Source: Brachionus manjavacas (Eukaryota; Rotifera; Eurotatoria; Ploima; Brachionidae). From it: a stretch of 64,000 nt of DNA. The position numbers and the translations under genes were made by a program. Where the stretch lies: positions 6,307,501 through 6,371,500 of the forward strand of contig JAHQIY010000005.1 of the NCBI GenBank assembly GCA_019054805.1. The letters run 5' to 3'. Below, one piece after another: positions 8,439 through 54,152 of this stretch (position 1 is the stretch's first letter; every line of letters begins with the position of its first letter). The notes beneath the pieces were generated by a model. It had not been told where the DNA came from, did not search any database, and saw nothing but the letters and a program-made list of their open reading frames with translations.

Positions 8439-9960
8439 TCTGTACCGAGCTAGGGCTCCTTCAGAATAAATTAAAAAAATCAAAATCAAAATAAAAAATA
8501 AAAGTTAATAAAATGAGATAAAAATAGATGTGGCACATGTTTACATAGTTCAGGTTTCAGGAAAAAAGGAGGTAGCAATTACACAATGGAGTTGGGTATT
8601 CAATATATCTCGATTCGAAACCTTTTTTGTATTCCTCCACCAGACTCAGTCCTGTCCCAGCACATCTCTCACTTAACTCAAAAAGTCGATTCGAGACTGT
8701 TAGTAACTTTAGTTTATTAAAAGCTTCATGATGCACCATGTTGGAAAGAGTATCATATTTTAACTTAAGGATAGATCTTACTGCTTTATTCTGAAGTGAT
8801 TGTAGTTTTTTTGTTTTATTTTCTGAAAATGAATTCAAGCAAGGAAAAGAATAGTCTAAAATAGATCCGACTAAAGATTTACATAAATTTCTTAGTGTGT
8901 TTTGAGTAAGATCCCATTTTTTGTTTGACAATATCTTAATAATATTTAGCCTTTTATTGCAGCGTTCTTTAATTTCGTCTACCAGTATATTAAAACTTAA
9001 CTTAGAATCAAATTTTATACCAAGAAACTTGATTTCTTTTTGGCTCATTATTCTTTTTCAATAATTTTTTAAGTTTAGATTATCACTATCTTTTTTGTAA
9101 CTAGAAAGGACTACTGAACACGATTTTTCAACTGATATCTTCATTTTCCATTTAATAAGCCATTGTTCTAGTTCGTTGGTGTATTTATTTATCTTATTTT
9201 CTAGGTTCCTCTTTTTGTTATAAATGAAGAATGTAACTAGATCATCTGCGAAAAGCAGAGAGTATTCCTTATTTGTTTTGTTTCTTTTGGGGATGTCGTA
9301 ATACTAATTGGTCTATAATATAAAGGATCGAAGTTTTCCACGCTTTCGGGACCTTACCTTCTCTAAGAGATAAATTAAAAAGTTCCATGATTTCTATTAA
9401 TGAATTTCTAGGTAATTTTTTTAATATTAAATTATGAATCTGATCAGGTCCTGATGCCGCTTCATTTTTCAATTTTTTTTAAAGCCTGAATCGTTCGTTG
9501 AAGCAATTTGGATCATTAAAATTACACTGATTATAATTTCTAAAGTAATCAGTGTTCGAATTTAGTATTTCTATATCTTTCTCAGTATCAATTAATAGGA
9601 ATAAATATTGAAGATAAGAGTTCTCCGAAGCATTTTCTATTTTACTTATTAGTTTTGAGTTCCTTGTCATTTTAAATCAAATTTGGAATTAAATTTGATC
9701 CTTTTTTGTTGTAAATTTATTTATTTTTTTCCAGAATGGTCTACTTGTCAGTGGGTTTTTTCCCATCTTCTCAATAAAATCAAACCAATTTTGATTCCAG
9801 AATTTTTTTAAAGAGGCTTTAACTCAAATGTAAGTTGATTATTTTTTGCTTGAGTTTCTGACAGCGAATTTTTTCGAAGTTTCTTCTTAATGTCCTACGT
9901 TCTTTTATCAAAATAACAAATTTCGGGGGAAGACTGGTTCTGTCACTTAATTACTTTCCT
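8439..9960 (-). mobile_element. LINE-A copy 2, linker to 3' tail, internally deleted
   Basis: Minus strand, 5' to 3': EN-RT linker (9650-9940); pre-RT segment ASGPDQIHNLILKKLP...VPKAWKTS (9269-9472); then a deletion joins it to the RT catalytic motif [13 protein letters not shown] (about 9240). The thumb and C-terminal domain follow (IKFLGIKFDSKLSF..., 8557-9048, open to its stop). The copy ends in the family's 3' stem-loop tail at 8439-8466 and an A-rich AAATAAAT run. Only about one third of the RT palm is missing. With copy 1 and the copy at 36115-37535 it defines the family. Confidence 0.85.
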
Positions 9961-12499: not shown

Positions 12500-13480
12500 A
12501 AATATTTATTTATTTATTTATAACCTCCTCAGGAGAAGTAAATTAAAAAAAAAATTAGAGTTTGAATAAATGTAAAAAAGTCAATTAAATTCTTATGCAC
12601 ATGAAAGAGCTCATGCTCGATACAGATATACAAAAAGATAAAATAAGTAGTAAAGAAAAAATAGAAATAGTAAGAAAAAAGAATCTACAATTTAAATTTA
12701 GTAATGTTTAGTTGACCAAGAAAGGTGAGTCTCAATTAAGTTCAATAAGTTGGTTAAATAAAATTCTATATTTTAAATCTTAAGTTGCTCAAACACAGTT
12801 CAATAGAGTCAGAGACACCATCACAGAGCTAGAAATGCCGCTTCATCTACATTATAAGCCCATTCACTCTTTCAAGTAGGGAAGATAAATTTAAATTAAA
12901 AAATGAACATAGTCTTTTAATGTCTGTTTCAAAGGAGAAGAAGAACATGGGGAGTTAATTGAGGCATTATAACAGAGTGAAATAAAGATAGAGGAGGCGA
13001 TTCCATTGAATTTAAGTGAAGTAATAAATGATTATTTTGAATAAAAATATAGTTGATCAAATTTGAAAATTCTTAGTACTTTGAGGATGCAAGACATGTG
13101 GCTACTCCATTTTAAATTTAGCATCTGTCTTAATAAGTTGTTTTGGTTTGTGTTTAAAGATTTAAGGCATCTTGAATCCATAGTAATATTCTCTAGACCA
13201 TAGGTAAATTGTGATAAGCAGAATGTTTTATAAATAAAACTATTTAGGAATGGTTATAGGACACTGATTTTCCCATGAAGAAAGAAGGCTGAATAAAAAG
13301 ATTTTTCGACTTGTTTGAATTTATTGGTCCCTATGGAGTTAAATTCTAAGTTTGAGCCTTGAACAAAATAATTTGTTACCCAAAAAATCATCTAATTTCA
13401 AATTTACTAGGAATCATAGCAGATAAAGGAGGATTGTTATTTTGAAAACTTAATTTTAATTTTTTACAGCAAAAGATAAT
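12500..13480 (-). mobile_element. LINE-B 3' end
   Basis: Minus strand. The C-terminal domain reads roughly LINKLQNK, then SHMSCILKVLRIFKFDQLY (13060-13150). The same wording, [10 protein letters not shown]...[18 protein letters not shown], occurs in the LINE-B copy at 32890-33520. The 3' end (12500-12540) is a hairpin, ACTTCTCCTGAGGAGGTTA, followed by AAATAAATAAATAAA; the 33-kb copy has the same kind of end. A LINE-A-like tail at 12602-12627 sits inside on the opposite strand. Confidence 0.65.
12602..12627 (+). repeat. LINE-A-type 3' stem-loop tail
   Basis: TGAAAGAGC-tcat-GCTCGATACAGA on the plus strand, followed by an A-rich run. It matches the LINE-A tail CTGAAGGAGC-n4-GCTCGGTACAGA with few changes and marks the 3' end of a severely 5'-truncated insertion in LINE-B. 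Confidence 0.55.
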
Positions 13481-17879: not shown

Positions 17880-20800
17880 AACGTGGTATCAAGTTTTTTG
17901 AATATTTGATTTTAGTGGTAAGCCGAAAGTTAAGCATTTGAGATGTTTAGAAAAGCTAAATTTTTCACTGGAAGAAAGGAAAAATATTCTTGTTTTTGAT
18001 TGTTTCAGTCGATTTTGAAAAGTAATGAAGAGAAAAGAATAGCACGAGATGTTTCAGGGAAGTCAGTTAATAATTCATTGTTTGAAACTAGCTTATTTAG
18101 CAGGAAAGGGAAAGACGAGACACGTGATTTTTCGGACAGATCGTGGAGTGATATTTCAACTGGTATTTTTAAATATAAAGCCAAAAGTTTGATTATAAAT
18201 ATGAGCGCAAAAATTTTAAAATGGAAGATACAATTCTTGAAGAATACACTTTCATTCAAAAATATGGAAAATATTTTAAAAAGCAATAATTAGAAACATC
18301 AAATTTTCAAATTGGAGAATATAGAAGCTGAAACAACAAAGTGTTTGAACGGAAAAACCTTAAGCCAAAAGAGCTTAATAATGGCAAACCTTAGCTTAAG
18401 AGTCTCATCATTTTTTACTTAGGATACAAATGTGGATATATGGCTAGCAAAATTTGATAATTATCTAGAATTAAATAGAATTTTTGGAGATAGAGAAAAG
18501 ATAAATGTGTGTAGATCGTATCTTAATTCAGAAAGTAGGAATTATACGACAAATTACAAAGTTCAAAAACCAACGATGAGACGCTTTTTGTTTAATCAAG
18601 AAGGACAATTAAGAGTAATTGCCCTCATTGTATAAGAAACATGAACAACCAATACTATAGATTGTGTAAAGATAGCAAATATAATTCATTAAATAGATCG
18701 ACGCCAATAACTACAATAAGAAATGATCAAAGAAACCAATTCTCTGCCACCAAAAATGGCATGGAATTGGTTTCTTCAAAATTTTGTAGAATCAGATAAT
18801 AACAGCTTAAAATATATCTACGGATATTTAAATGAAGAAAGGATAGAATGTTTATTAGACACTGGAAGTGTAAAAACGTTAGTTAGTCAAAATATCTGGA
18901 GGAAACTAGGGGCAAAGAATTACAAAAAACGAAAGGTTCTATTACAACTGGAATGGTCAACTGGAATGTGAATGGTCAATCTTTGAATGCGATTGGGTCA
19001 TTCACGGCTTCATTGAGAATTGGTACTAATGAAGTCAAACTTGATGTTTTTGTGGCAGTGGATTTACAACACGATTGCTTAATTGGTCTTGACTATAATG
19101 GAAAAGTGCAAGGAAATATTGGGAAGAAGAAGTTAAAGATAGATAAAACAAAGCAGTAAACCGAGTAAAATTTTCTTAAAAAGAACAAAGGAAGATGAAA
19201 TCATTTTTATCTGAAAACGAAGATTTATTTGAAAATTCGATGAAAGAACTTGGTTGTTGCAATATTACAATGCATCAGATCAACACAATAAGGAAATGAA
19301 CCGATACGAAAATCAACCAGAAGAATTCCACATAAATAAAAAATAGAAATAAAAAAACAATTAAATGAACTTGTCGAGACTAACATCATAGAACCAAACA
19401 AATAAGATTGAGCTGCACCCCTTGTTCCTGTGAAAAAGAAAAACGGAAAGATAAGATTATGCATAGATAACCGATTGCATTTTGGAGAAGATAGTTGACC
19501 TATGCAGAAAAAAATTAATAGTTTACGGTATTGATCATTTTCGTATTTACCTTTATGGTCAAGAATTTAAAATTTGCACGGACTATCAACCATTTAAATG
19601 GATGTTTAACATTAAAGAATCCCAACTAAGAATCACTAGAAGGATAAAGAAATTAGGTGAATTTCAAATTCGAAATTGAATCCAAACCTGGGAAATAGAA
19701 CGGGCATGCTGAAGGTCTCTCGCGTTAGCCTAATATAGAAGAAAGTCACGATGGGACCAATGGCGAGGACGATAGGATTATTGAGAGCATTCCGGAAATT
19801 AATTTGATTAATTTTCAGACAAATGATATTAATCCTCAATTGCAGGACAATAAAATCGAAACGATTGTAAGATGGAAATATGCACCTGTTAATAGCCTTC
19901 AAAATAGAAGTTTAATTGGCGATCTCAGGAGTATTGGTTACAATAGGACAGGTTAAGAGTAATAAATGGCGTGCTCTATAGAATATGGAAAATAGGTGAT
20001 AGCCATTTAAGATATCAACTTGTTGTCCATCGAACATGAGAAAAGATAGTCTAAGGCAAATGCACGTTTCATAATTAGGTGGACATTTTGGTATGACAAC
20101 AACAGCTGTGAAGATCGAATCTAAATATTACTGGCATGGACAGCATAACGAAGTTAAAGATTATGACGAATATGTTCGGAATTTAAGTGTCAAGAAGCTA
20201 AAACAAATGAAATTTTGAAAAGAGAACCTTTACAGCCCATCATTACATTAAGACAACTACTTGTCATATATTGGGTCCACTTCCAGTAACGAAAGACGGT
20301 GCAAGAAAATAAAAGTCTATATTTGTCACTTCACTAAATATATTGAATTGTGCAGTCTAAAAACATTAGAGGCAAATGAAGCGGCAAAGTGCTTTATGGA
20401 CCTAGTTTGTCGACATGGTGTACCAGAGAGTTTCTTGTCAGATCAAGGAAGAAATTTTGAGTCAAACCTTTTTAAAGAAGATTTAGAATTACTTGACGTT
20501 CATTATTTAAGAACTACTACTTACCATACACAATGTAACGGACAAACGGAAAGATTTAATAAAAAGTTGATTTCAATGACGGAAGTTTTATAAACGAAAA
20601 TCAGGACAACTGGGCTATCCTGTTAATCAAAATGGCTTTCGCGTACAGATTGACTGTACAAATAACAACATGACAAACCTCATTTGAATTAATGAGGGCA
20701 AGAAACTAAATTCCCTATTAACTTGGTTTTTTCAAATGATAATAGTTCTGTTTTAATAAACTACTATGTTAATGACCCAAAGACTGATATCCTTATATAA

Positions 20801-21865: not shown

Positions 21866-22189
21866 AAAAATTCTGATGAAGCGAGAAAGATGATTTAAGC
21901 TCCTCCAAAGGCGAGATTTCGTTTTTCTATGATGAAAAATTTGACGAACTTATTTTAAATTTAAGTTCTGATCAAAAAAGTTTTTTTCAGAATCTGATCA
22001 TATGGCGTTTTTCAGTGAATTTATGCTAGTTATGTCGACATTTTAAACAACGAACTCAACTTAGTTTTTATGTGATTATTTTATGTAATTATTTTATTTT
22101 ATGTAATTGATTAAATTAATACTTTTGCTTAATTGGTGTAAATTTAAAAATAAAATTTTTTTATTTATTTAGTAGTAGTAGGAGTAGTA

Positions 22190-22985
22190 GTTGGATGACT
22201 GCGAGTTTCCGGATGACTCCAGCAAGAGAACCTGATTCCTATGAGCAGCCTGTACTTTGGTCGTCAATCCTCTTTTTGAAAGAGTTGCCACTTGGTGCGT
22301 CAATGACTGAATCGGGTAGCTTGTTCCACATTCGTGCTACCCTGTTGCGAGAAGCGTTATGACTGGTTAGACAGTCCTTCACTAGCTCTGGTCTGATGTG
22401 CCCTCGATGCCCGCTTCTTGGCGGTCCAACTTGTAGAGAGGAGTGCCATTCGACAGTGTCCAGTCCTTTATGAATTTTGAACATTTCTATCAAATCACCC
22501 CTGGCTCTCTTTTCCTCCAGAGTTGTCAACTTCAGTTTTAACCTGTCTAACGTATGTCATGTCGCGGAGTTGAGTTTGGACTTTGGTGGCACGGCGCTGA
22601 ACTTTTTCCAGTGTGTTTATCTCGCCGAGGCGGTATGGTCTCCATTCTTGGATTACATACTCGAAATGCAGTCTGACGTACGTAGTGTACATTTGTTTCC
22701 ATATATACGCATCCCTCGAAACCAGCGTCTTGCGAAGCACTCCGAATATGGAGTTGGCTTTTGCCGCGGATTTATCCACCTGAATCTTTGTGTCCAAAGT
22801 GTCACTCACATGGACTGCCAGGTCTTTTTCCGTTTTAGTAACCTCAAGCTCGTGTGGTATACCGGTCGACCTATCTAGGATGTGGTATTTATTCCTTGGG
22901 TTATGCTTACCGTTATGCATGACCTTACATAGGCTTCCAAGTCAAAGGAACACCCTGATCCATCTGAGTACGGTTCCTTCTACCC
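22190..22985 (-). mobile_element. LINE (CR1/L2-like) C-terminal end, unusually GC-rich
   Basis: Minus strand: KYHILDRSTGIPHELEVTK, then VSRDAYIWKQMYTTYVRLHF, INTLEKVQRRATK (22495-22920), and after one frame change LTTLEEKRARGDLIEMFKI and VARMWNKLPDSVIDA (22239-22529). This is the standard end of a CR1/L2-type ORF2 (LEKVQRRATK, TLEERRARGDLIE, WN.LP). It stops in a (CTA)n tail next to AAATAAATAAA (22165-22195). The base composition is far less AT-rich than the surroundings, and only one break is obvious, so the insertion is fairly young. Confidence 0.85.
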
Positions 22986-24119: not shown

Positions 24120-24180
24120 ATTTATTTATTTATTTGTTTTTCTGTATCGAGCCAATGCTTAATCAGAATAAAAACATATT
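24120..24180 (-). repeat. LINE-A-type 3' tail
   Basis: Minus strand: TTATTCTGATTAAGC...GGCTCGATACAGAAAAA followed by CAAATAAATAAATAAAT. It matches the LINE-A tail with a weaker first stem arm. No LINE coding sequence precedes it, so it is a very short insertion. Confidence 0.55.
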
Positions 24181-25529: not shown

Positions 25530-28500
25530 CTAAATGTATAATTTGTCTCTTCTTTCTTTGAGAAATTCAAGCGCTGTTTTGTCTTGGTCTTTTCGATACT
25601 CAAGTACATCAATTATCCTACTTGGAATATCTAAAAAAAATAATCAATCAAACACCTTTTTTTTGGTAAATTCATTCGATTGATACCTTTGGGTCGAATC
25701 AGCATCAATTCAGAATACTTAAGTTCTTTATAATTAATGTCACTTGATTCTCCTTTTAAACGAGGAACACTATTTAATTCCAAAAATGCCTCGCCTTCGA
25801 AGTCATTTGTCCAAACTATGTCGTGGTCCATTATTGTAAAATGAATCACATGACCTGGCTGGCTGAGGTAGCGCTCCGCTAATTTACTAAATCAAAAAAT
25901 TTTATTAGCTATTTAGTTTTTTTAGTATTTTTTGTCATAAATTACAATTCAAATGTTTCGTTATAAGTTGGATTTAGACTTTTTTTGACCACTGTTGTTG
26001 ACTTTTTTTCACAATTTACAAAAACATGCTTCGGCTTTAGATCAATTTCTACATACTAGAAAAAAAATTAATGAAACATCAAACAGCAAAAGCAAAAGCG
26101 TGACTGATAGAGTGGACTGCAGGTTTCAAAAAATCTGCAGTCAACTCGATCGAAAGGAAAAGAGGTGATTTAATTCAATCTTTTAAAATCTCTAATGGAA
26201 TCTGCCAATTTAAGATTTATTCATTCATAAATGGTCATAATTAATTGATGTTAGAAAATGTCTTTTAATAATTCAAAAGCATTAATCAAGATTTTTAATT
26301 CTATTTTTTTTTCTATTTATTTATTTAATTAAAGTTTAAGTACCATGGACAAATTGAAATAAAAATTAATAGAAAATTAAATATCCATTTTACAATTAAG
26401 TAAAAAATTCAGTTTGTTATATACAAAAATATGATTTAGATTATTCAACATACAATATTCTATTAAATAAAAATAGTATTTTATCGAGTCGGTTAGTCCA
26501 TTGTTGTTACATTCAAGGCACCATTCAATCAAAATAACACTGAATGTTAAATCATATTCAGTGCAATTTAAATGAGTCAGATCTTCTACTTTTAATAACT
26601 GTTTAATAAAAGACGTATTCTCTCTATCAAATATCTTGTAATCTTTTCTTAAAAACTCAAATACGTTTTTACATAATTTGTTATTTAAAATTTGTTTGAC
26701 AAAGAATTTTTTATGCTTATAATAAATTTGTCTAATTGACTCCAAGTGTTTTGTTTTTGTAAATTTACTGAGTCCAATAAATCGTTTTATTAAAATATTT
26801 TGCCGTAAATCAAATTCCTTTAAACTCTTTTCATAAATAAAGATATTTTTTAAATGATATCTGAAGATTGATTGAGAGAACTGTTTGTATAAGAAAGCTA
26901 TAGTTTCTGGCTTCATTAGCTTTGGTTTGCATCCAACACTATTTAGAGAGTAAAAACTTTTTTCATCTTATTTTCCACGAAATCATTTGTGGATTTCTGA
27001 TTTCCAATAGCTAGGCCTAGATAAATCAAACTTTGTATTTTAGGAATTGCAGAACCATTTAATTTAAAATCTGTTTTAAAACCAGTGCTTTTTTTTCAAA
27101 TAATATTGATGCCGATTTAGAAGCATTAAATTCGATTTTCCAATCTTTTGCATATTCTTCACAAGTTCTTAGCAAAATTTTGATAGTCTAAAGCAAAGGA
27201 AATCAAATCCATTTCTCTTTATTCTTTATATTTTTACAGGCAGAGTTCTTTTAGAATTTCATATTTAAAAAAAAATTAATTGTTCAGGAATTTACAACAT
27301 TTTCTTTATTGTAAAAAAATTTAAACTTGAAAAAGTCAATTTACTTTCTAATATTGTTGCCTGTATTTGAAAGTAAAAAGCTTAAACTTTTTAACCAACT
27401 AACAGACGAAATTAATAGCATCTGTTGAAAAATTATCAAACCTCAAAATGTTTACTTCAACTTCACAGCATCAAAAAGAAACTATCAAAATTAATCATTT
27501 AAAATCAATTCTTATTTATTCGTGGCTAAAACGGTTCACGCTGGTACCAAATAAATAAATATTTAAAAAAAAAATAAAATTATGAATTTAATTAAACCGG
27601 GCCCTAATTTATTCCAAATTTTATAAATAATAAAAAATTTTAATTTTAATTTATCATTTTTTATTAAATAATAAATCAAATTTGTAGAATGGTATATTTT
27701 TCAGGAGAAAAATGAAGTAAATAAATGTTATTCTTCTCAGAAGACATCATCCTAAAACATATCAGTATATTTGACAAAAGAAAATCTCGTGGAAATGATG
27801 CCATACCTCCTCATGTAGTGAGAAGCTGTGTAGCAATCTTTGCTTAGCTACTAGAAGTAATTTTAAAAAAACTTGCATGTTTGGCAAATTATCCAAAGAA
27901 TGGAAGGAGGCAAATATAATCTATATTGAAAAAAAGGAAGAAGAGCGAACCAGTTAACTACAGACCATTCTCACTGACTTCCATTCCATGCAAGATAATG
28001 GAAAGAATTATCAAGGAAGCAATGATGGCCCATCAAATTTGACCTGCAACACGGTTTTGTTAATAATCGATCAAACTTGACAAATCTCCTTGAAATTATA
28101 CTCAATAACAGAAGCATTGAATCACGAATTTTCTTTAGCAATTGTATTTATTGATTTTTGCAGAGGATTTAACAAGGTCTCACATAGAGCACTCATTAAA
28201 AGGCTTGAAGCTTATTGTTCAAGGGTTCTCTTCTTAATTGACTTTTTGACAGGTAGAAAACAAAGAATAGTTCTAGGTGAAAAGTCATTCGATTGGAAAG
28301 AAGTGAAGAGTGGAGTACTACAAGTTTCTGTACTTAGACCACTTCATTTTATCGCTTTCATAAATGAGTTTCCTGAAGAAGTTAACAGCGCAATAAAGCT
28401 TTTTGCAGACGACACTAAATTGATAGCCACAAAAATTGACGAACAAAACCCTCAAATTGACATTGAAAGACTTGTCGTTTGGGCAAGTAAATGGCAGATG

Positions 28501-34500: not shown

Positions 34501-37500
34501 TAGGTTTTTGTCCAACAACAACTTGTTTAGCTTCGATTGGTATTTTGACAAGTTTCATATTTGCAGCAAAGCCAACAAGATGCTTACAAATATGATCTTT
34601 AAAGAAGGAAGGACAGGAATAACTAGCTAGTCATATGTCTTGGTAAAGAGTTGAGTATCAATTGTTGGTTAGACATTTTTGAAAAATTTTTGAATTTTTG
34701 AAATTTTGAAAAAAAAATATCCACAAAAAAAACTCTCACAGGAGATAATTAAATTAAATCAAGATATAATTTCAACTGTTCATTAATTAAGTTAAGAGCT
34801 ATATTCATCATAATCATACTCATCTTCAGTAAATTTAGTGACAAAAAAACTCAGGATACATAAATATTTATTATTAGAGACAGTTAATTAATCAAATTAA
34901 TCGAATAAATAATATTATAAATAGAAAAAATAAAATAATATATTTTATTAAGTGATCGTTTAAGTAATGTAAGAGATAGATAATAATACCCCTTTCTTCT
35001 TTCTTTCCTGAACTGTTCAATAGTTAAATATTTTTCACATGTCACCTCTTACAATTTATCAATTTTTAATTGTCTTTTTCTTATATTTTTTCTTTACATT
35101 TTTATTCTATTTTGTCTTAATTTTTTTTAATTTTTTTTTATCTGAAGGAGCTTAAGCTCGGCACAGATAAAACAAATAAATAATTAATAATAATTTAATA
35201 ATTTTTTTAGATTATTTATCTAAAAAAAATCACTGTTCCTCATTATATCGGGATATGACTTAAAAATACGCAAATTAAATCTTTCAAATATTAAGTCGCT
35301 TGTATTTAACACTGTGTAAAACTAGACAAATCGAGGACTATCATATTATTATTACTATTGTTAGAATTATTATTTTGTATTTTTTCTTTCTTTTTTTAAA
35401 TATTTGTTTAAGCTAGAAGTGGCCATTTATTAATAAAGTTATTATTATTTATGATTATTTTCTTTTCTAATTATATTTATGTTATTACCGCGAACCACCA
35501 GATCCTAACAGATCCGTACAAAACTTATATTTATTTAAGGTTTATAACATAAACTTTAAAAAGAGTTATTGAACTTTATTAAAAATACTATTCATTCTTA
35601 TTATTCTATTAATTCTTATTCTTTATTTTTTTTTTAAATTAAAAACATTATTTCGAAAAAATTTCAATTTAAGTGGCTAACCGCCAAAAGTTTGGCCGTA
35701 TTTATGACGGCTTTAATTTTTAGCCGCCCGTATATTTTAGGCCGTTTAATTTGGCGGTCCAAAAAATAGACCGCCTAGCTGAACGGCCAAATGACCGCAA
35801 AAAACCGTCCATGTATTGGACCGGTCTGAGCCTATCCAACACTTTTTTATGTGCACTAAATTATTCAGTTTTTACCAAAAAAATTCAAATGAGAACTTTT
35901 TTCAAAACTTTACTATATAAATCATTACGCACTTAAATAATTTCTGAATTGAATTAAAATAATTTTTGACATGAATTTACATATTAATTTAGACTTTATT
36001 TTTATTTTTATCACTCTCTCAAAGCATGTATATCGTCGCTACATTAAACGATTACTTTTTAGCTGGAAGAGTTCCTTTTTGATAATTTTTTTTATTTTCC
36101 GTCCCTTTTAAAAATGCAGTTCATCCTGTATTAGGATGATCCCAAAAAAGAAAGGCTTCTCTCCCGACCCTAACAATTACAGGCCTATAAGCATTACGAG
36201 CTGCCTTGGAAAAATTTTAGAAAGAATAGTCACCAATAGGCTAGAAAAGTTCTTAGAGGAGAATTCCATCATAATCAAGGAGCAGTCAGGTTTCCGTAGA
36301 AACAGAAGAACAGCCGATAACTTGTTCTTTTTAATTCAAAAAGTCAGTGAATGCTTTATGCTCAAAAAAAGTGTTTGTAGTGCCTTCCTTGATATTTCCA
36401 AAGCTTTTGATCGTGTATGGCACGATGGGCTTATCTACAAATTATTTAAGTTAAATATTCCTAAATATGTAATACAGTAGATCATCTCATTTCTTCATCT
36501 TAGGCAATTTCAAGTTAATCTGAATGGCCTCTTAAGTAAATTTATTTATATCAAGGCTGGTGTTCCCCAGGGTTCAGTAATTAGCCCCTTACTTTTTAGT
36601 ATTTATATTAACGATATTCCGAAGAGGTACAAATCTTACCACAGTTACTCTTTGCTCTTTGCAGACGATATTGTAACTTTCTTCATATACAAAAAACCTG
36701 GTAATATTCAAGCCTCAATAAATAATTATTTGAAGGAATTAGAACCATGGCTAATAAAATGGAAAATGAACGTTTCAGTGTCCAAATTCTCGTACACAAT
36801 TTTCTCTAAAAGGAAAAAAAAACTTAGCCTAAAACTGAATTTATTTAACCATAATCTCCCGTGTACCAATACAATTAAATTCTTGGGTATAATTTTGGAC
36901 AATAAACTTTCCTTTAAGAACTACATTGATGAAATAAAGGAGAAATGTAACTCTAGATTAAACTTAATTAAAATATTATCAAACAAAAGTTGGGGACTTA
37001 GTCAGTACACTTTAGGTACACTTTATAAAACCCTTTATTTATAAATCTACTTTCAAATGAGTCTAATAGGAAACTTCAAGTTATTCAAAATACAGCTATT
37101 CGTTCAATATTGAAACTGAAAATGGACACTCCCCCTAGAACAACTCCACCATCTAGCCTTAGATAAACTTAAAACTAATAGGATAGACAATCGTCTTTTT
37201 GATCTCAGTGAGAATTATATCAGGTGTGGTCTAAAAAACTCAGTACCTCTGGTAACTAGACTAGTAAAAGAATATATAGCTGTAATTAGCCATAAAGAAA
37301 TATGCAATCTTGCAACACCATTGTGTGGTTTATACCTCCTAATTGATGAATTTTTTCCTTACCTTGCTTAATACTTGAAAACTTCTATCTCCTTCACTTC
37401 TCAACAACTAATTATTAACATTTGTTAACTGATCATGTATTCAAAATATGTAAAACTAAAGGAAACATTTTATTAATTTTTTTTTTTTCTGAAGAAGCTT

Positions 37501-40500
37501 GGCTCGACCAGAATTTACTTAATAAATAAAAATAAATATGGTTTGGCTCATTGCAAATCGGAAAAAGATGAAGACTACCCCTTTGCATTTAATGGTTCAC
37601 AGACGAAGACTAGCGAATACCAATAACTAATAACGCAGTAGAACCAACGAATAAAGTCATCAAGTTACATTCGACGTTCCAAAGACAGATGCCGATGGAA
37701 TATTTTTACCACTGTGCCATGCACCAAATCATCAAAAACTGGAGCCTCGATCGCAGTCTTAGAACAGATGAGCAACCAAATTTAAATCAAAAAGTTTTCC
37801 AACATGTTCCGCTTATCGCTATAAAAGACTACGATGTAGCATTTGTAAAATCTATGTCTTTTGAACTTTCATTTTTTTTTAGCTTATTTACTTTATTTTG
37901 ATTTTTTTTATCTCATTTTATTAACTTTAATTTTATTCTTTTTTTTTGATTTTTTTAATTTATTCTGAAGGAGCCCTAGCTCGGTACAGAAAACAAATAC
38001 AGAAATAAATAAAATAATTTGAGTGGCTTGAAAAAGATAAAATTATGTTTCTAGTTAAGCGACATTTTTACATACCATCCAAATAAACAAAAAAGCTAAA
38101 AAAGAAAGATGCTGAAGCGTTTAAAGATGCTAGAAACAAATGTATTTGGAAGACTTTCGACGCTTTAGTTAAGCAAACAGACAGCCTTTGTGAAATTAAA
38201 ATCAACAAAACGCAATGGAAATTGTCGCGATGCAGTTCCGATTGGAACAACAAGAATTACATTTGCAAGCACCTCATTAGAGTGTGCTCAAAATTGAAGG
38301 TTGGAGATTGCCAGATTCCTATCGCTTCGGTCAACAAGCCAGGAAAAAAACGTAATCGAGGAAGACCCACTTTGGCAGCAGCAGCACTGGTGGTAGATCC
38401 TACTGGATTCAAAAAAGCTTATTTAAATCATTAATTTAATAAAGAATCGGGTACTTAATAAATATACAGTGTAATTTCGGTTTTATGAACCCCGGTTGTA
38501 ACATGACAACCACTTCATATAACTGAAACTTCATAAGATCGACTTTATGAAGTCACTTCATAAAAAAAAATCAGGATAAAGTAAAATTTTTTATTTACAA
38601 AATTAAACCAAACGATTATCTATTTTAATTTAAACTGGATACTAATTGAATTTTAAATTACTTTGAACATATTGTATTGGTAAAACTTCATTTAAGGGTG
38701 CATGAGTTTGAACATGCTCATCAACATTTACAAAATCATCAAAACTCGAATCAAACGAATGTTTAGAGAACTTTTCGCTTAATTTTTCCAGCTAAGGTGT
38801 GTCTTTATCTATCTCGTTTATTATTTTTTTTTTGGTTGCGATATCAATCGCTTGTCTCACCATTTTTTTAATTGTACAATAAAAAAAAGTTACTTCATAA
38901 AACCAAGTGAACTAATACATGTAAATTAATATGGTTTAATTTTTTGTGTTTGAATTAGAAAATGTATCCAATGTTGAAATAACATTGAAAAAGTGCGATG
39001 TTTCAAAATTTTTTTTCGGTTTCAAATAAAAAATAATTTTAAGTAAATATTGCAAGCATCAAAAACTTGGTGTTTTTTTTATGAATTTTGACTTTAGGCT
39101 TGTGATATGATGATCTTTAAGATAATAATTTTAAAAAACCATATACGCTCTGTTTTCCATTTTTTATCAATTGAGTATTTGTTAAAAAGCACCAAACGAA
39201 AATAAATTATCACTTAAGTCAAAATTTTATAAGATGAAAACAAAGTTTTCATGGTTTTTGTCATTGAGGTAAACTATGGTTCACCTCTTACCGGAACGAT
39301 TCTTGTTCTCAGGTTTTATAAACTATTAGTCCACCTAATTTTGCGAAATAGATGAATCTTTGTTCTCCAAAGTCAAACACTTGAAGGGTGAACAATTTAT
39401 TTTAATTTTTTTTTTTTTTTTATTATAAATGCTGAAAGGCAAAGTTTTAAGAAGAGAGCGCATTTAGGTATTTATATATATGGGATTATTGAAAGAGTAA
39501 TACCAAGTCAACCAGATCATAGCAATGCTATTTCTAATGCTCCTCCAAAAAAAAAAACCTAAAAAGCTATTAACTAATTTTTATATCAGTTTCGAGAAAA
39601 AGGCATTCTATTAAATTTTGAGCTTTATTCAATTTGTTCGCATAATCTAAAAACCTTTCGTCTAATTCTATTTTGAACAAAAAAAATGTTCAAAATATAG
39701 ACCAATAGTTCACAAAACCTGAGAACAAAGTATTTCGGGTTAATAAGTGAACTATGGTTCACCTAACCGACTACATCCAGTTTTTTAATGATTGAATATA
39801 AAATTAAATCAAAATAAATTATTTATCTATTTTTTTTTCTTTTTAATTCTCATTTTTATTCTTTTTAATTTATTTAATTTTATAAGTATATTTTTTGATT
39901 TTTCATATGTTTCTAGTCTGAATGAGCTTTTGCTCGGGAAAAAATAAATAAATGAATTATTTAAAAATTAAAAAAGAATTTTTCAATATTTTTTTCAGAT
40001 TTTTAAATAAAAATTAAACTCATTCTATTTCACCAAAGAGTTTAATTTCAAATATGAAAATGCTTGCAATATTAACTTAAAATTTTTTTTAATTGAGACT
40101 GAAAATCAATTTGAAACATCGCAGTTTTTTAATGTTATTTCAACATTGGATACATTTTTAATTCAAACACAAAAAATTAAACCATATGCATAGAGAAATT
40201 TTTTTGTCTGTTTTTACTACAGAACAATGAAACTACATAAAACTGAGCAAAATTTACCTAAAAAAGTATTCAATTTCATCTGTTTTTTACTATTCACTTC
40301 ATAACTCCGAAAATTCATAAGAAAGGAGGTCATAAAAAAGAGGTCACACTGTACAATATTATTTTTTTATTCTATTCTTATGTATATGCTACTATATTTT
40401 TTTAATTTTTATTTTGTGTTTGAAAAAAATAAAGTTTTTCGAAAAAAATAAAATTGTGCTTGTTGTATTTTTTAATCTAAAAATGAATTAAAATAGTTCA

Positions 40501-46500: not shown

Positions 46501-49500
46501 CGAACAAATGGTTGAGATGAGCTTTAACAAAGAAAAATTTATGGTGATTCCCTACGATAAAAACAACTTGAATTTAAATTATAAACTTGGTAATTATGAG
46601 ATGGAGAGTTCACCATACGAGCGATATTTGATTTTCTTTTTAATTTTCTAAATAAAAAGCAGAAAATATTTAATTATAATGAAATAGCAATGATTGTGTA
46701 AGAAAAAATTTTTTTTAATAAATTTTTTTCCCAAAAATTCATCTTTAATTTTTGCAAAATAGTAGAATCTAATTTTTTTTATTTGCCTCACAAAAAATTA
46801 AAGAAAAGACTAATTGATTTGAAAAATCGCAATAAAATTTAAAAGAAAATTTTTTTTTTAAAAAATGGTTTTGTCTCTAATATTAAATTTTTCTATTTGA
46901 CTTCGTTCTTTGTTAAAATATTCTGATATGAAATAAAATGGATATGCTAGGAAGATTAAGTAAGTGTGGGTTCTATAATTTGAAGTGTGTTGGTCGGATT
47001 TTCAAGTGTCCCGGTAGTGAACACATGAATATACTGATGAAATAATTGCTCAAGATGGCACAACTTAAAAAGAGCAAAAGAAAAAATATAAAATTCAAAA
47101 AGTTTCGAACAGATCTTGGTATCGAGCCTTAAACATTTCCTTATTTGTTTTCAAAAACAAAAGAAAATCCTTAGTCAAGTATTTTCAAAATAGTCCTCCA
47201 TATTGTTTAGTTCAGTATGATCACATTTATACTCACAATCGAAATTCCTCCTTCCACACAGGGTTGAGAGTTGCCTTTTTAACATTAGTTGTTTGAATGT
47301 ATTTAGCTGGTAATTTTTCACTGATACCAGTCAATTTTAAATTTGTATTAGGACTTGACTTATTTTTGTTCAAATTAGAATCTTTTGAAAAATTGAGTGC
47401 TTGCGCAGTAGGATGAGACTTTTCCGATCGTCTAAAACTACTGAATCTTTTGATTAGGCTTGATTTTTGATGAGACGACTGAGAATGCTGTCCTGACTGA
47501 TTAATGTTAAAATTTTGAACTGTTGGCATTTTGGATAGGCCGTGGGTGAACGTGTCAGATTGTTGATTGATTGAGTTTTTTCGGTTTCCAGGAACAATGC
47601 CGAGCATGCAATAGGGATCAGAAAAGCCATTTGCATCCTTGGCTTCTAAATCACAGGCTTCTAATACCTCGCAGTTTAGAATTAAAATTGGTGCCTTGAA
47701 ATATTTATCGATTTAAAAAGAAAATTAATAAAAAAAAATGGAACTTTTTCTTCACTAGCCAGCTGGAACAAACGTTCATGATCTTCGGCAGTCATTTTAA
47801 AAGCCTGCTGTGCATATTTGTATAAATCAGCTATGAAGTCCGTGTGTCCGTCAATGGTGCGACCGATTTTATGTTTGATGGTGTAGATTATTTCGCAATA
47901 TAATTGTTCTTTTTTTTCTTTTGAAATGTTTAGCCATGGTTCATTTGAGTAAAAGCTAAAATGCTTTTCGTCTTGGATTTTTGTGTTGGTAGATTCGTCC
48001 TCAATCTTTCAATTAAAAATCAAGTCAAATAAATCAGGGCATAAAATGATTTTTCTAATTATTAAGTACAATTTTATTTAAAATAATTAAAATTTGATTA
48101 ATTTTTTCGAAATTTTTCAAGGCAAATCATAGAGTATGGATGGATAAACGTCTTTATTTAAATAAATAAATAAATATTGGCTCGAGCTTTCGCTCCTTTG
48201 CCAAGCTTAAATAAAATGTTTCAAAAAACAAAAAAAAAAAAAAATAAAAAATAAAATTGTTATCTCATAAGTTTTTTTTTTTTTTTTTAATTACAAAACA
48301 AGAAAAGAACTGAAAAAATAAAATAGAAGAGAAAAAAAAAAAAAAAAAAAAATATAAGACAAATTAGACAATGTTTCTATTAGTTATTTTTTCTTTTACT
48401 GCTACACTTTTAGGTTACCTAGAAAAGTATCGAATTTAAGTTTATTTATTCTACCTCATTTAAATAGTTTGTATTCGTTTATTAAATCATTAATTAATGG
48501 ATTTTTATTCTGAATCGAGTCGCTTAAGTAATTTTCATTTAGTTCCCTATATCTATCCTCTAGAACTTTAATGCCTGCTATTCTTTAAATGTTTTGAGTG
48601 TTTTCCCGATAATTTAGCTTAAAAATTACCTTAATAGCACAATTTTGAATTCTCTGTAAATTTTTAGATTTGTTGCAGACGAAGAATAGTCTAGGACCGA
48701 TCGTACAAGATGGGTTCGCTTAAAAAAAAGAATAGTAAAGCTTGCTCAAAGTGGACGAACAGTTTATATGGTCACAGCGTCATAGAATGATCAACAAGCA
48801 ACAAAAGAAATGTGCAAAGCGTATATTCAAAAATCAACTTGGGGCATTTACAATGAATATAAAATTTGGAGTGATTCAATTAATTTAATTGAGATAAACA
48901 AAGAGATTTGGGAGTTGAGTATTTGCAGTTGTCAAAATTGGAAAAAAAAATTATTTTCTCAAGTATTTTTTCTACATTTAAAAATATATATATTTTCTAC
49001 TACAAGAAATAAAAAATATCAAAAAAGTTCACATCAGTGTATTAATTAATTGATTTACTTTTATTTCAATTTGCTTTAAAATTATTTTTTTTTTTAAATA
49101 ATAAATTTTTTATTTGTTTTAATACTAGAATAATTAAATCCACAACTTAAATCAAAGAAATTACCAAAAGGAACTTTAATTGAATTAAGTAATATTTAAA
49201 ATGAGTTTGGAACTAGGCTAAGTTCCAAATCACGGAAAATAGTGTGTATAATTATATGAACCTAAGAAAATTTCTCCAAGTTAGAACTCCACAAACAAGA
49301 AACAAGAATTTCAAGTTGTAATATGGGTGTAAAATTAGAGTTAAAGACAAATGGAATAAAAAAGTAAAAACCCTTTTTGTACTTTATGCTAATCTTTTAT
49401 TTGGTCCTGCTCCGTTTTGTTCTTTCTTTACTTTTAGATAATTAAAATAGAAATTTAATTAATTTATAGTTTAAATATTTATTTTAATTTAACTTTTATT

Positions 49501-52500: not shown

Positions 52501-54152
52501 ATTTTAAAATATTTATTTAGCAATTTAGAATTTACAGAATCCTAAATGAAGTCTTAAATAATTATTTTGAAATTCCAAATTCCAAATTTCACGATCATGT
52601 CGATTTTTCGGAGGAAACCTTGAATGTATCACTTAATTTAGGTGACAAATTGAAAAATTTTGTGTTTAAAAAAATTTCAGGCTTTGTCAGATTCAATGCA
52701 AAACATTTCCAACAAAATTTCCTTTTTTTGGAAATTAAAATTTAAGATAAAAAAATTAAAACATGCTGTGTTGCACCTTTGTTGCACCTAGATATTAAAA
52801 TCAAAATTTAAAAAAAAATTTAAAAACTCACAAAAATTTACAAAAATTAAATATATTATTTTTTAGGTGGCAAAGTTGAAACTTCCCAGTAATACCAGTG
52901 TTAAAGCGAACAGGCAATAGTATTGGTATTTTTATATTTTGATCTAGGGGATCTAAATCTCAAACCATAATTGCCATATACAATTTTTTAGAATAATTTT
53001 TTTTTCACTATGTTAAAAACTACTCATTCGACTCTAAGAGTTAATTAACAGGAAAATAATAAATAAATAACTTACAAAAAAAATTTTTATCTTTTTTAAA
53101 TGCCTTTTCGCTCTATCACCAGTAATACTTGGAAAACTTAAATTTACCACGTTAAAAAAAAACGTTAAAACTTTTTCCTCTTTTAAAATATTTTATAATT
53201 CTTAATTGATAAATAAATCTTTTGGACGATTAAAATTCATAGAACAAAATTTGAATAAAATACCCAAATTCAAAATATTTACTCATTTTTTTTTTCTTTA
53301 AAAATTTTTAATAGACGTAAAAATTAAAAACGAAGGTAAAATTAATTTTTAATTTGATTGTTATTTTAATTCAATTATTAATTTTTCTGTACCGAGCAAA
53401 AGAACCTTCAAATTATAAAGAGATTCAAAAATGAAGTTTAATAATTAGGTTCTTTTTCTTTTTATTTGAATTTTTTTAAAAAAATTTGAAAAAGTTAAAC
53501 ATATTAGGCTAAAAAAGGTGTTTCACATAATTGTTTTTTATAGTTTTTTTATCTTTAATTAATTTTTTTGAAAAAATTGTACTGGAATGCCAATTTTTAT
53601 TGAAAAAAAAATTTGACTTTTTTTTCTAAAATTCACACACTTAAATAATTAGGACCGATTTCTTTTTAGTGCAAAATATTTCCTCCTTATCTTATTAATT
53701 TAAAACATAGATTATTAATTAATAGAAATAAACAAAAAATGTTCTATTTACCTCTTTAAAAAAATTGAGCTTCTTTTCATTAATACTTTTTATTGAATTT
53801 TCTAGCGCTTCCAAAAATAATCCAACATTGTCATCGTCCCTTGGAAAAAAATAGATTAATAAACAAAATTAGTTGGTAAATTTTTGTACTTAGAAGAGTA
53901 TCTTTTACAATAGTGAAATGATGATGTTTTATAATTAAAACGACTAAAGGAATCACTAAGCTGCTTTGGAGAATTTGGCAAACTGTCATTCAGATATTTT
54001 CTATCTGACTGAGCAGCGCTCTTAATTGTGGAAAAAGGCAGTCTTTTGGTCGAAAGAGACCGGTGTGGGCTAGCATGTTCAGAGGCCAGCTTGGTCAACT
54101 GATCGCGTTTAAAAGACCTTCGAATGTTGAGCAATGGACTAAATTTATCCAT
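25530..54152 (-). CDS. BAIAP3: BAIAP3 homologue (Munc13-4/BAIAP3 family), 20 exons
   Basis: Exons: 53890-54152, 53752-53839, 47745-48005, 47237-47694, 43999-44520, 43822-43939, 43094-43221, 41669-41908, 41570-41621, 41476-41511, 41320-41425, 41151-41271, 40972-41095, 32192-32770, 31982-32128, 31653-31935, 31546-31598, 25946-26055, 25687-25886, 25530-25630. They total 3990 nt, in frame, 1329 residues. C2A (about 205-440): [50 protein letters not shown]; an ~85-residue Ser/Asn-rich insert splits it. A helical MUN region follows (about 480-1150, [11 protein letters not shown]). C2B (about 1177-1300): [47 protein letters not shown]. Loop aspartates of both C2 domains are kept, so calcium binding is likely. 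Known family role: docking and priming of dense-core or secretory vesicles with SNAREs and Rab27. LPAK.IQ and IWDHDDE favour BAIAP3 over Munc13-4. Donor GTTCCA of intron 3 is weak; a small exon in the 5.7-kb second intron could be missed. Confidence 0.92.
26340..27220 (-). mobile_element. LINE C-terminal end inside BAIAP3 intron 17
   Basis: Minus strand, same direction as the host gene. Open frame 26377-26916: [40 protein letters not shown], then a helical C-terminus. Upstream, about 26930-27190, is the RT thumb ([19 protein letters not shown]) with frame breaks. The 3' end is AAATAAATAAATAG. Clade not certain; it differs from LINE-A and LINE-B at the tail. Confidence 0.65.
27700..28740 (+). 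mobile_element. LINE (CR1/L2-like) RT domain inside BAIAP3 intron 17
   Basis: Plus strand, antisense to the host gene. Pre-[20 protein letters not shown] and [19 protein letters not shown] (27780-28010), then the palm: [35 protein letters not shown] (from SGVPQGSVLGP) and the catalytic FADDTKLIA (about 28400), open to 28716. The GV.QG motif is degenerate, frame breaks lie upstream, and the C-terminal end is lost after about 28620. Confidence 0.8.
29515..30318. mobile_element. DNA element with long inverted ends carrying a SAP-domain frame
   Basis: Left arm 29515-29622 and right arm 30171-30318 are imperfect inverted copies: both read TTTCTAATTT, AGGAAAAA, TGTAGAATTT, TTTTCTAA, AGAAAAGTGTATTC in the same order from the outside in. 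TAAATAT lies just outside both ends (three bases away on the right), a possible target duplication. Between the arms lies a coding block at 29785-30100 with a SAP domain. Non-autonomous; family unknown. Confidence 0.6.
29785..30100 (+). CDS. SAP-domain reading frame inside an inverted-repeat element
   Basis: Open frame [18 protein letters not shown], then [18 protein letters not shown], an Asp/Ser-rich stretch ([11 protein letters not shown]) and a Lys-rich end. The first 40 residues match the SAP helix-turn-helix (LKV.ELK..L....L...G.KA.L...L), a motif that binds AT-rich DNA. Base composition is less AT-rich than the flanks. There is no ATG at the start of the domain; the sequence AAAATAG just before it could be a splice acceptor. 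Probably the 3' exon of a transposon protein or a captured host exon. Not certain to be expressed. Confidence 0.45.
30340..31060 (+). repeat. Interspersed repeat, second copy of the 14040-14400 sequence
   Basis: Shares GAAGTTAATGATCATGATCA, ATCCAAATTATGGCT, GCTTTAAATGA, ACAGCGAAA and TGCAAAATTTCAAAAT with 14040-14400 in the same order. Interrupted at 30418-30738 by a younger inverted-repeat element. Confidence 0.5.
30418..30738. mobile_element. 321-bp MITE-like element with 60-bp inverted ends made of 21-bp repeats
   Basis: Left arm 30418-30477 and right arm 30679-30738 are reverse complements at 59 of 60 positions. Each arm is GTTTTTTARTACCTC, then two 21-bp units (AAATTTATTAAAATTTAC plus CTC), then AAA. 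The 200-bp middle is non-coding. No target duplication is obvious. The near-identity of the arms means it is young or still homogenised. Confidence 0.85.
32890..33520 (-). mobile_element. LINE-B 3' end in BAIAP3 intron 13
   Basis: Minus strand: [39 protein letters not shown], then after one frame change [20 protein letters not shown] and a stop at about 33085. The 3' end at 32896-32913 is ACTTCTCC, TTAA, GGAGGTTAA followed by TAAATAAATAAA, the same tail as the 12.5-kb LINE-B copy. Confidence 0.7.
33890..34010 (+). mobile_element. LINE-A C-terminal scrap
   Basis: Plus strand: [19 protein letters not shown], nearly the wording of LINE-A copy 2 ([19 protein letters not shown] at about 8560-8640). 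Only this end of the protein survives. Confidence 0.65.
34223..34640 (-). pseudogene. MULE-like transposase end: SWIM zinc finger and AT-hook
   Basis: Minus strand: [18 protein letters not shown] (SWIM-type zinc finger, C...C.H; the expected first cysteine is a serine), [34 protein letters not shown] (AT-hook-like), a Glu/Lys-rich stretch and a second hook GSGRPRKNL before the stop. SWIM followed by GQK.RRGRP is the usual C-terminus of MULE transposases in invertebrates. The 111-residue frame 34223-34558 is intact, but no catalytic part lies upstream. Confidence 0.6.
34980..35185 (+). repeat. LINE-A 3' end with stem-loop tail
   Basis: Plus strand: T-rich 3' UTR ending TCTGAAGGAGC-ttaa-GCTCGGCACAGAT (35140-35166), then AAAACAAATAAATAATTAATAA. 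Same tail as the complete LINE-A 3' ends. Confidence 0.65.
35672..35832. repeat. GC-rich cluster of interlocking inverted repeats
   Basis: A 160-bp island rich in CGG/CCG in very AT-rich surroundings. Perfect pairs: ACCGCCAAA (35680-35688) with TTTGGCGGT (35750-35758); TTTGGCCGT (35691-35699) with ACGGCCAAA (35783-35791); hairpin GGCGGTC-n9-GACCGCC (35753-35775). No open frame of note. Could be one end of an unknown foldback element; no second copy in the window. Confidence 0.6.
36115..37535 (+). mobile_element. LINE-A copy 3: RT, C-terminal domain and 3' tail
   Basis: Plus strand, antisense to BAIAP3, in its intron 13. [110 protein letters not shown]: all RT blocks are present, including the catalytic FADD. 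A TAG at about 36478 and frame changes in the C-terminal part (after about 37040) interrupt it. It ends CTGAAGAAGCTTGGCTCGACC at 37489-37511 and an AATAAATAAAAATAAAT run. It is the best-kept LINE here and 5'-truncated within the RT. Confidence 0.85.
37540..38434 (+). pseudogene. MULE transposase, 3' half, split by a LINE tail
   Basis: Plus strand: [38 protein letters not shown] (37620-37740; TNN..E..N..IK is a MULE block), then [36 protein letters not shown] (SWIM finger; C..S...C.H) and [17 protein letters not shown] before the stop at 38434. Between about 37860 and 38015 lies only the 3' end of a LINE-A (tail at 37962-37990), so the LINE landed inside the transposase. The catalytic N-terminal part is absent. 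Confidence 0.65.
37862..38015 (+). mobile_element. LINE-A 3' tail inserted in the MULE transposase
   Basis: T-rich stretch ending TTATTCTGAAGGAGC-ccta-GCTCGGTACAGAAAA and CAAATACAGAAATAAATAAAA. The stem-loop core is base-for-base the one at 8439-8466. Only the last ~130 bp of the LINE were copied. Confidence 0.75.
38929..40187. mobile_element. Foldback element with arms of about 400-500 bp
   Basis: The outer arms match when inverted: ATATGGTTTAATTTTTTGTG, AATGTATCCAATGTTGAAAT, TGCGATGTTTCAAA, ATATTGCAAGCAT on the left (38929-39065) and in the same order on the reverse strand at 40187-40050. The inner arms also match (39270-39337 with 39692-39770: GGTTCACCT, TTGTTCTCAGGTTTT, GAACTATT or AAACTATT). 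A LINE-A tail lies in the right arm. A third, partial arm is at 50660-50860. Confidence 0.7.
39780..39960 (+). repeat. LINE-A-like 3' tail inside the foldback element
   Basis: AGTCTGAATGAGC-tttt-GCTCGGG (39914-39938) followed by AAAAAATAAATAAATGAAT on the plus strand: a short LINE-A tail in the right arm of the foldback, explaining why that arm is longer. Confidence 0.5.
40535..40623 (+). repeat. Array of five TATAGTG boxes about 20 bp apart
   Basis: TATAGTG (mostly TATAGTGCA) begins at 40535, 40555, 40575, 40593 and 40615: spacings 20, 20, 18 and 22. The spacers differ, so it is a spaced motif and not a simple tandem repeat. It precedes an RTE-like LINE end. Confidence 0.6.
40640..40920 (+). 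mobile_element. RTE-like LINE C-terminal end
   Basis: Plus frame 40670-40917: [38 protein letters not shown] and [12 protein letters not shown], then a stop. RM....P..I......GA.......I...L......A.DR..WR is the usual C-terminus of RTE-type (and some R4-type) LINEs. It is less AT-rich than the surroundings. No RT precedes it. Confidence 0.55.
41909..43093 (-). other. BAIAP3 intron 7, nothing recognised
   Basis: 1.2-kb intron of A/T runs without a transposon or exon that I can support. Other short BAIAP3 introns (50-109 nt and the 580-nt sixth) are equally empty, apart from an 11-bp hairpin, CACAA...TTGTG, at about 43673-43696. Confidence 0.5.
44887..45012 (-). CDS. Orphan exon-like frame in BAIAP3 intron 4
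   Basis: Minus strand, same direction as BAIAP3. After a good acceptor (TTTGTTTCAG) an open frame of 41 codons reads [39 protein letters not shown] and ends in TGA. Phase 0 does not fit the exon 4 donor (phase 2), but would fit the exon 2 or exon 3 donors. It may be an alternative last exon or an exon of a decayed nested gene. No family recognised. Confidence 0.2.
   Translation of the reverse strand: MLSLNNLLINSFNILRTCVIVEDQINSIITCENIYENEDDS
45950..46250. repeat. 300-bp imperfect foldback repeat
   Basis: 45955-46085 and the reverse complement of 46135-46245 share AGGTTTTGT, TTCAG, ACAAAA, AACTTTTTT and TTCAAAGTTGCATCAA in order. MITE-like, degenerate, in BAIAP3 intron 4. Confidence 0.5.
46400..46640 (+). 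mobile_element. LINE (CR1/L2-like) RT scrap
   Basis: Plus reading [56 protein letters not shown]. This is the RT stretch from the catalytic box (FAYD instead of FADD) to the thumb. Short frame breaks occur between the pieces. Confidence 0.65.
48176..48760 (-). mobile_element. LINE-A-related C-terminal end and tail
   Basis: Minus strand: [58 protein letters not shown] with a few stops, then poly-A-rich UTR and the tail GGCAAAGGAGC-gaaa-GCTCGAGCCAAT (48176-48205) and TATTTATTTATTT. Stem sequence as in LINE-A but flanks differ, so it is a sister family. Confidence 0.6.
48790..48950 (+). pseudogene. MULE transposase SWIM-finger scrap
   Basis: Plus frame [46 protein letters not shown] matches the SWIM start of the MULE copy at 38.2 kb ([14 protein letters not shown]). 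The following C.H half is missing. Confidence 0.45.
49200..49310 (+). mobile_element. LINE-A-type RT scrap
   Basis: Degraded copy of the 10470-10570 sequence (TTGGAACTAG, AGTTCCAAAT, GGAAAATAG, CCTAAGAAAA, TTCTCC). Too short to classify further. Confidence 0.45.
49894..50162. mobile_element. 269-bp MITE-like element with 21-bp perfect inverted ends
   Basis: Left end 49894-49914 and right end 50142-50162 are exact reverse complements (CAGACTTG then TTTTTAAGTCACA). The arms go on imperfectly inward (AAGTCAA, GTCAACTAATTTT), so nearly the whole element can fold. AAGTC/GACTT motifs recur throughout. No target duplication seen. Confidence 0.7.
50480..50561. repeat. Perfect 35-bp hairpin with 12-nt loop
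   Basis: 50480-50514 and 50527-50561 are exact reverse complements (outer CCAAACATCAATCTATCGAT, inner AAATGATAACT). The loop is 50515-50526. No other copy noticed in the window. Located in BAIAP3 intron 2. Confidence 0.85.
50660..50860 (+). repeat. Partial copy of the 38.9-kb foldback arm
   Basis: Contains TGGTTTAATTTTTGTGTTTG, AAAATGTATC, AATTTTATAAG, AACTACGGTTCGCC, TTGTTCTCAGGTTTTATGAA and CTATTAGT in the order of 38930-39340, with middle parts missing. Only one arm is present. Confidence 0.6.
51340..51655 (+). mobile_element. LINE (CR1/L2-like) 3' end with (TTA)n tail
   Basis: Plus frame [35 protein letters not shown]: the L.YE.RLK.LGL.TL..R block of CR1/L2 C-termini. A (TTA)n microsatellite at 51607-51650 forms the tail. 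Confidence 0.6.
52230..52375 (+). pseudogene. Possible PIF/Harbinger-type N-terminal scrap
   Basis: Reading [26 protein letters not shown] resembles the W.R.W...R...G.F..L..EL segment at the start of PIF/Harbinger transposases. Short, with a stop before it. Weak call. Confidence 0.3.
53340..53430 (-). repeat. LINE-A-type 3' tail
   Basis: Minus strand: TTTGAAGGTTC-tttt-GCTCGGTACAGAAAAATT (53384-53415). The right half is identical to the LINE-A tail; the left stem arm is mutated. Confidence 0.5.

Follow-up and report, generated by a model that had tools for sequence, protein, structure and literature searches.

The closest described counterparts of the structure reported here are the 3' tails of stringent-type LINEs of the L2/CR1 group, such as eel UnaL2 and zebrafish ZfL2-1 and ZfL2-2. 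These tails carry a 3'-terminal stem-loop that is common to related LINEs and is recognised by the element's own protein (PMC4176376), and in the zebrafish L2 elements the protein region between the endonuclease (EN) and the reverse transcriptase (RT) binds this stem-loop, whose stem pairing is required for mobility (PMC4176376). A repeat tail is described for UnaL2, and plant L1 elements of the ME1 lineage have a 3' stem-loop whose stem changes in a compensatory way from one element to another (PMC3747384).

The rotifer Brachionus manjavacas harbours LINEs whose 3' tail is structured in a way already described for stringent-type LINEs. Here too a 3'-terminal stem-loop (H1) is common to related LINEs and is followed by a repeat tail, and recognition by the element's own protein, reported for the L2/CR1 elements, is what we infer. 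Unlike in the L2/CR1 tails, where specific recognition has been ascribed to the hairpin loop, in the rotifer elements this loop varies while the purine internal loop and the stems are more constant, and four family types (D, E, E2 and F) have a second hairpin (H2) predicted to abut the first. The plant elements belong to the L1 clade and differ in conserving a loop UCU and a CGAG flank rather than an internal loop (PMC3747384). Mammalian L1 ends in a plain poly(A) tail, unlike the family that we name LINE-A below. No paper on the tail of this LINE group was found in the open-licence literature, including by a search for Brachionus together with stem-loop and retrotransposon.

A hairpin at the 3' end of LINE-A

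The window, that is, the whole stretch of DNA analysed, comprises 64,000 nucleotides (C5:6307501-6371500; G+C about 26%) of a 114-Mb assembly in 61 contigs. A first-pass annotation had listed a stem-loop motif at nine places in it, and at all nine, read in sense orientation, the motif is indeed present, either as CTGAAGGAGC-n4-GCTCGGTACAGA or in a recognisably decayed version. GAGCNNNNGCTC occurs six times in the window, compared with 0.06 expected from shuffles, and the exact 26-base core has 1,272 matches genome-wide (654 + 618), compared with none for a reversed control pattern. A search of the window against Rfam returned nothing that reached the gathering scores.

The RT remnant 36481-37044, used as a protein query, shows what carries the hairpin: 150 copies were scored from 5,611 first-look candidates, and a sample of 30 RT-picked loci was drawn from this search. 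In 27 of the 30 (L012-L038) the hairpin lies 485-700 bases past the RT match and on the same strand as the RT, and the expectations that the motif would sit at LINE 3' ends, in constant orientation to the reading frame, are thereby borne out. L009 is the window copy itself, with its decayed hairpin at 37489, and in L010 and L011 a downstream hairpin was not found. The end of the element is laid out as a T-rich 3' UTR, the hairpin and a variable AAACAAATAAAT-type tail; by eye, the AAACAAATAAAT-like stretch after the hairpin differs in length between copies and is followed by differing flanks. Both enzymes of a non-LTR retrotransposon were matched, the reverse transcriptase in the L035 frame (RVT_1, E 1.2e-40) and the endonuclease in an L026 frame (Exo_endo_phos_2, E 8.4e-13), and the solved structures nearest to the RT frame by sequence are R2 and L1 ORF2p. 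Given the position and strand of the hairpin, the tail, the two domain matches and these relatives, the repeated hairpin is therefore the 3' end of a non-LTR retrotransposon, named LINE-A here. R2 is not known to have an APE-type endonuclease, whereas LINE-A has an APE-type match. LINE-A copies combine a fixed 3' end and a repeat tail with variable 5' truncation. As for target-site duplications, a word of at least 10 bases is common to both sides in 5 of 29 copies, compared with 2.75 expected, and likely-looking single cases include L005 (TGACATGTCA) and L004 (AATTAATATA).

All 27 loci (L012-L038) have the outer CTG/CAG and AAG as the 5' internal loop; 25 have an intact inner stem and 25 read GGTA in the 3' internal loop, while the hairpin loop reads TCTA in 14, TTTA in eight and ATTA in five.

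Recognisable LINE coding sequence stands just upstream at only three of the nine window sites, 8439(-), 37489(+) and 48176(-). The suggestion that such coding sequence, where it remains, belongs to a LINE-A-type protein fits the first two of these; the third belongs to a second family, LINE-B, and the other six sites are without it. At 8439..8466 (-) the exact 26-base core, with a CCTA loop and an A/T-rich tail, follows a remnant of the LINE-A protein C-terminus (8557..9057, -), an open reading frame that by eye resembles the C-terminus of the L035 frame, and LINE-A homology extends 833 bases upstream of the hairpin. On the plus strand, an RT remnant in two stop-to-stop pieces (36112..37044; RVT_1, E 1.3e-22 and 1.6e-16) belongs to the copy whose decayed, shortened hairpin lies at 37489..37511. 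The exact core with a CCTA loop recurs at 37962..37990 (+), read as a separate 5'-truncated copy; the homology measure gave 1,408 bases upstream of it, which in our view is over-extended into the adjacent copy 36112-37511. A further 5'-truncated copy, with a TTAA loop, lies at 35140..35166 (+) and retains about 150 bases of the LINE-A 3' UTR. The hairpin at 12602..12627 (+) has a TCAT loop and is a tail-only copy; another TCAT-loop copy, with an identical internal loop, lies at C1:3746062. Decay is seen in the tail-only hairpin at 53384..53415 (-), where the 5' arm is broken and two of four inner stem pairs are left, and in the tail at 24138..24172 (-), with three of four. The tail at 39914..39938 (+) has a decayed 3' arm, without CAG, and lies within a DNA transposon (38929..40187) that has captured it and whose 131-base terminal inverted repeats (TIRs) are 92% identical.

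Sequence of other elements also lies in the window. At 22160-22941 (-) there is a remnant of another LINE, which we take to be CR1-like; it has no Pfam match and ends with CTACTACT-type repeats, where no H1-type hairpin is present. The RT of another LINE lies at 28081-28719 (+; RVT_1, E 8.1e-10), and no LINE-A core was detected downstream. A weak integrase (rve) match at 20252-20593 (+; E 8e-05, below the Pfam cut-off) is perhaps a remnant of an LTR element.

Related families and compensatory change

The copy that ends at 48 kb is LINE-B. Its 3' portion (48165..48710, -) consists of a protein C-terminus remnant, a T-rich 3' UTR, the hairpin UUGGC-AAAG-GAGC-GAAA-GCUC-GA-GCCAA (48176..48205, -) and the end ...AAATAAAGACGTTTATC with short repeats. 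Over 575 columns it shares 79% identity with L069 and over 493 columns 91% with L070; for the protein end, identity to the L070 frame is 91% (108 residues). The LINE-B RT frame (L070, 180 residues) has about 38-45% identity to LINE-A frames; the family ends in ...AAATAAAGACGTTTATC and then ATC-type repeats, unlike LINE-A, and its core has 44 exact matches in the genome. It had been noted that at this site the arms are kept while the flanks differ. The arms are not all kept, however: the outer arms are UUGGC/GCCAA in LINE-B and UUCUG/CAGAA in LINE-A, the three outer pairs beside the internal loop having been replaced on both sides. In L070 (1070-2974), two direct-repeat copies (starts 1070 and 2855), identical over at least 120 bases, flank a LINE-B hairpin. 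This hairpin directly abuts foreign coding sequence and represents either a nested insertion or a tail-only copy that is very short.

Further families came from two sets of loci. Of 12 RT loci from an RVT_1 search, four (L113, L114, L115 and L117) are LINE-A with an identical core. LINE-D (L120 and L121) has the hairpin AAAGGC-GAAAG-GAGU-n6-ACUC-AAA-GCCUUU in L120 and an (AAC)n tail, LINE-E (L116) has GCUG-AAAGG-GGAG-n8-CUCC-AAG-CAGC and an (AAAT)n tail, and E2 (L118) follows the LINE-E plan in different letters. LINE-F has a hairpin in L119 and a looser version in L122, while no two-tier hairpin was seen in L123 or in L112, the stretch of which may miss the 3' end. The second set, of 10 loci, added a LINE-F member with the hairpin (L124), a LINE-F remnant (L127) with none in the fetched stretch, which may miss the 3' end; the remaining eight are LINE-A remnants, and their 3' ends fall outside the scoring. 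LINE-C, which comprises five copies with a GCAA loop, is near LINE-B. Across the group the repeat tail is of the (AAAT)n, (ATC)n or (AAC)n type. H1 is built from an outer and an inner stem, between which lies an asymmetric, purine-rich internal loop (5' AAG, AAAG or GAAAG). In minimum-free-energy folds, a predicted H2 abuts H1 without a gap in L116, L118, L119, L120, L122 and L124, begins two bases after it in LINE-B, and is absent from LINE-A and LINE-C. In a midpoint-rooted RT tree of this genome's families only, in which the B frame fills 44% of the columns, A, B and D separate from E and F; both branches are starred, and L123 sits at the end of a long one. It is thus probable that the ancestor of the LINE group A-F already had the two-tier hairpin.

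Between families the hairpin is kept by compensation, as expected of the conserved 3' stem-loop of stringent-type LINEs, and the evidence for this is of three kinds. Among eight rows with six distinct forms of the outer arms, own outer arms pair at 32/32 positions and swapped arms at 71/208, and own inner arms at 31/32 and swapped ones at 140/208; since the arms were chosen from folds, own-arm pairing is partly by construction. A descriptor (outer and inner stems of four pairs with at least two G-C each, and a purine 5' loop ending in AAG or AAGG), the ranges of which were chosen after the test rows were known and which is thus not blind, matches four of the six rows beyond A and B, namely D, E, F_L119 and F_L124, with 0, 4, 1 and 0 matches, respectively, in 1,000 dinucleotide shuffles. 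E2_L118 fails with the AAG/AAGG motif and matches without it (0/1,000 shuffles), and F_L122 fails either way (8/1,000 shuffles without the motif). In the window, the strict descriptor is satisfied by four of the nine sites (8439, 35140, 37962 and 48176). It also matches 29885(-) and 22383(-), which we take as chance; the latter match lies inside apparent coding sequence of another LINE remnant.

Cleaner evidence than either comes from genome searches in which one outer pair was left free. In family F, 66 matches comprised 49 C-G, 16 U-A and one mispair, and in family E, 11 matches comprised nine U-A and two C-G; these searches count copies, and the underlying events may be one each. In family D there was no compensation, with 38 G-C, two A-C and one G-U among 41 matches. 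Only some of the rows have their lowest sliding-window fold z-score at H1; these scores are noisy, as AT-rich windows give extreme values.

Within LINE-A, in contrast, compensation is not supported: one-sided changes dominate in searches with freed stem or internal-loop positions. When the first stem base was left free and was not G, the old partner C was kept in 87 copies, re-paired in six and neither in seven (counted by eye in the 100 of 102 matches that were listed). Nor is an AAA 5' internal loop coupled to GATA on the 3' side: of 54 matches with AAA, 49 kept GGTA and are single changes and five have GATA and are double (by eye), a count that covers one single-change class, AAA with GGTA. 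Stem variants within LINE-A thus look like the decay of dead copies. The first-pass reading of a selected RNA hairpin therefore stands for the comparison between families, not for the evidence then cited, since CCTA, TTAA, TCAT, TTTT and GAAA are letters of the loop and do not compensate one another; the covariation check that it proposed turns out negative in LINE-A and D and positive at the free pair in E and F.

Probable recognition of the tail

Why should the hairpin be kept at the very end of so many elements? Its structure and position are observed, and it is likely that it functions as the RNA tail by which a stringent-type LINE's own RT recognises its transcript. Between the endonuclease and the RT of LINE-A lies a basic stretch, KERRK[VI]RR..QKTRC, that is kept in L013 and L035; across the EN-RT stretch the two share 55 of 75 residues, and of the 21 that are basic in L035, 16 are kept. 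By analogy with the described systems, we infer that the LINE protein, perhaps through this basic stretch, would bind H1 of its own RNA and place the repeat tail, as the start of the template, on the nicked target DNA. Reverse transcription would then begin in the repeat tail and proceed through H1, so that new copies would retain the hairpin and would often be 5'-truncated, some to little beyond it.

It is possible that the hairpin is instead a signal for 3'-end formation, export or stability of the LINE transcript rather than an RT recognition site. The hairpin does lie just ahead of an A/T-rich tail with AATAAA-like letters nearby, and its structure is preserved across families. However, the tails consist of (AAAT)n, (ATC)n or (AAC)n and not of plain poly(A), which suits template slippage at priming, and we consider this explanation rather unlikely, even though the hairpin may have a double role, serving recognition by the RT and as a 3' signal. 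That there is no selected structure at all, a young family having simply inherited a hairpin that pairs by chance, would agree with a LINE-A stem that hardly varies and with the one-sided variants there and in family D, yet it is most improbable, since families whose RTs are only about 31-57% identical to that of LINE-A keep the plan in other letters and U-A and C-G replace each other at the pair left free in the E and F searches.

If recognition by the RT is the function of the hairpin, a more specific arrangement can be imagined. As a tentative proposal, families A-F might use a two-part RNA handle that differs from the tails described so far, which are read at the loop, and in which the protein reads the purine internal loop (AAG/AAAG) between two covarying stems, H2 is docked ahead of the primer tail and the hairpin loop is free to vary. 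Were this true, family-specific outer stems could stop co-resident LINE enzymes from copying each other's RNA.

Tail-only copies and the natural series of LINEs

Several sites consist of little more than the hairpin and its tail, and it had been suggested that these are SINE-like partners mobilised by the LINE machinery. Among 38 hairpin-picked loci, upstream LINE-A homology exceeds 300 bases in 13, spans 61-300 bases in 17 and is undetected in eight, as it is at two of the eight window sites tested (12602 and 53384), although T-rich UTRs align poorly and copies beside another copy may be over-extended. Hairpins with a tail and no detected LINE-A sequence upstream speak for SINE-like elements. 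However, the LINE-A parts found in copies span 67 to about 1,300 bases, and among 30 upstream flanks only the TIR transposon is common to more than two (five flanks), the remaining likenesses being two pairs of flanks that match over 63 and 31 bases. Flanks of the TIR transposon at 38929-40187 are common to L040, L056, L067 and the 24138 site, the latter having about 250 bases (73%) in common with the transposon at 39.9 kb, and L067 and L060 contain sequence related to it. The LINE-A-type tails of this group have probably spread with the transposon.

The sole candidate for a SINE was the five-copy group with the GCAA loop. We rejected it: the group is LINE-C, as L072 and L074 run upstream into the end of a LINE-B-like protein, with coding sequence of 54-56% identity to it, the other three copies being shorter. 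The shared 5' start of four of the five copies was likewise discarded as the truncation point of the query copy, and a short body with a pol III promoter and a single 5' end, as expected of a SINE, is not what this group presents. ARAGORN found no tRNA in the window, and no SINE body joined to the tail was found in the sampled loci (about 0.35 Mb including the window, of 114 Mb). SINE-like partners are thus a highly improbable explanation of the tail-only copies, although a rare SINE may exist elsewhere in the genome; the copies in the sample look like LINEs cut short at the 5' end, or like LINE tails that a DNA transposon has carried along.

Truncation and carriage by a transposon offer a simple explanation for several tail-only sites, and the hairpin provides a strand-specific tag for LINE 3' ends in an AT-rich genome. 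More broadly, a single rotifer genome holds a natural series of related LINEs, with RT identity ranging from near 100% to about 31% and each with its own version of the 3' structure, which makes the choice of template by LINE enzymes directly testable.
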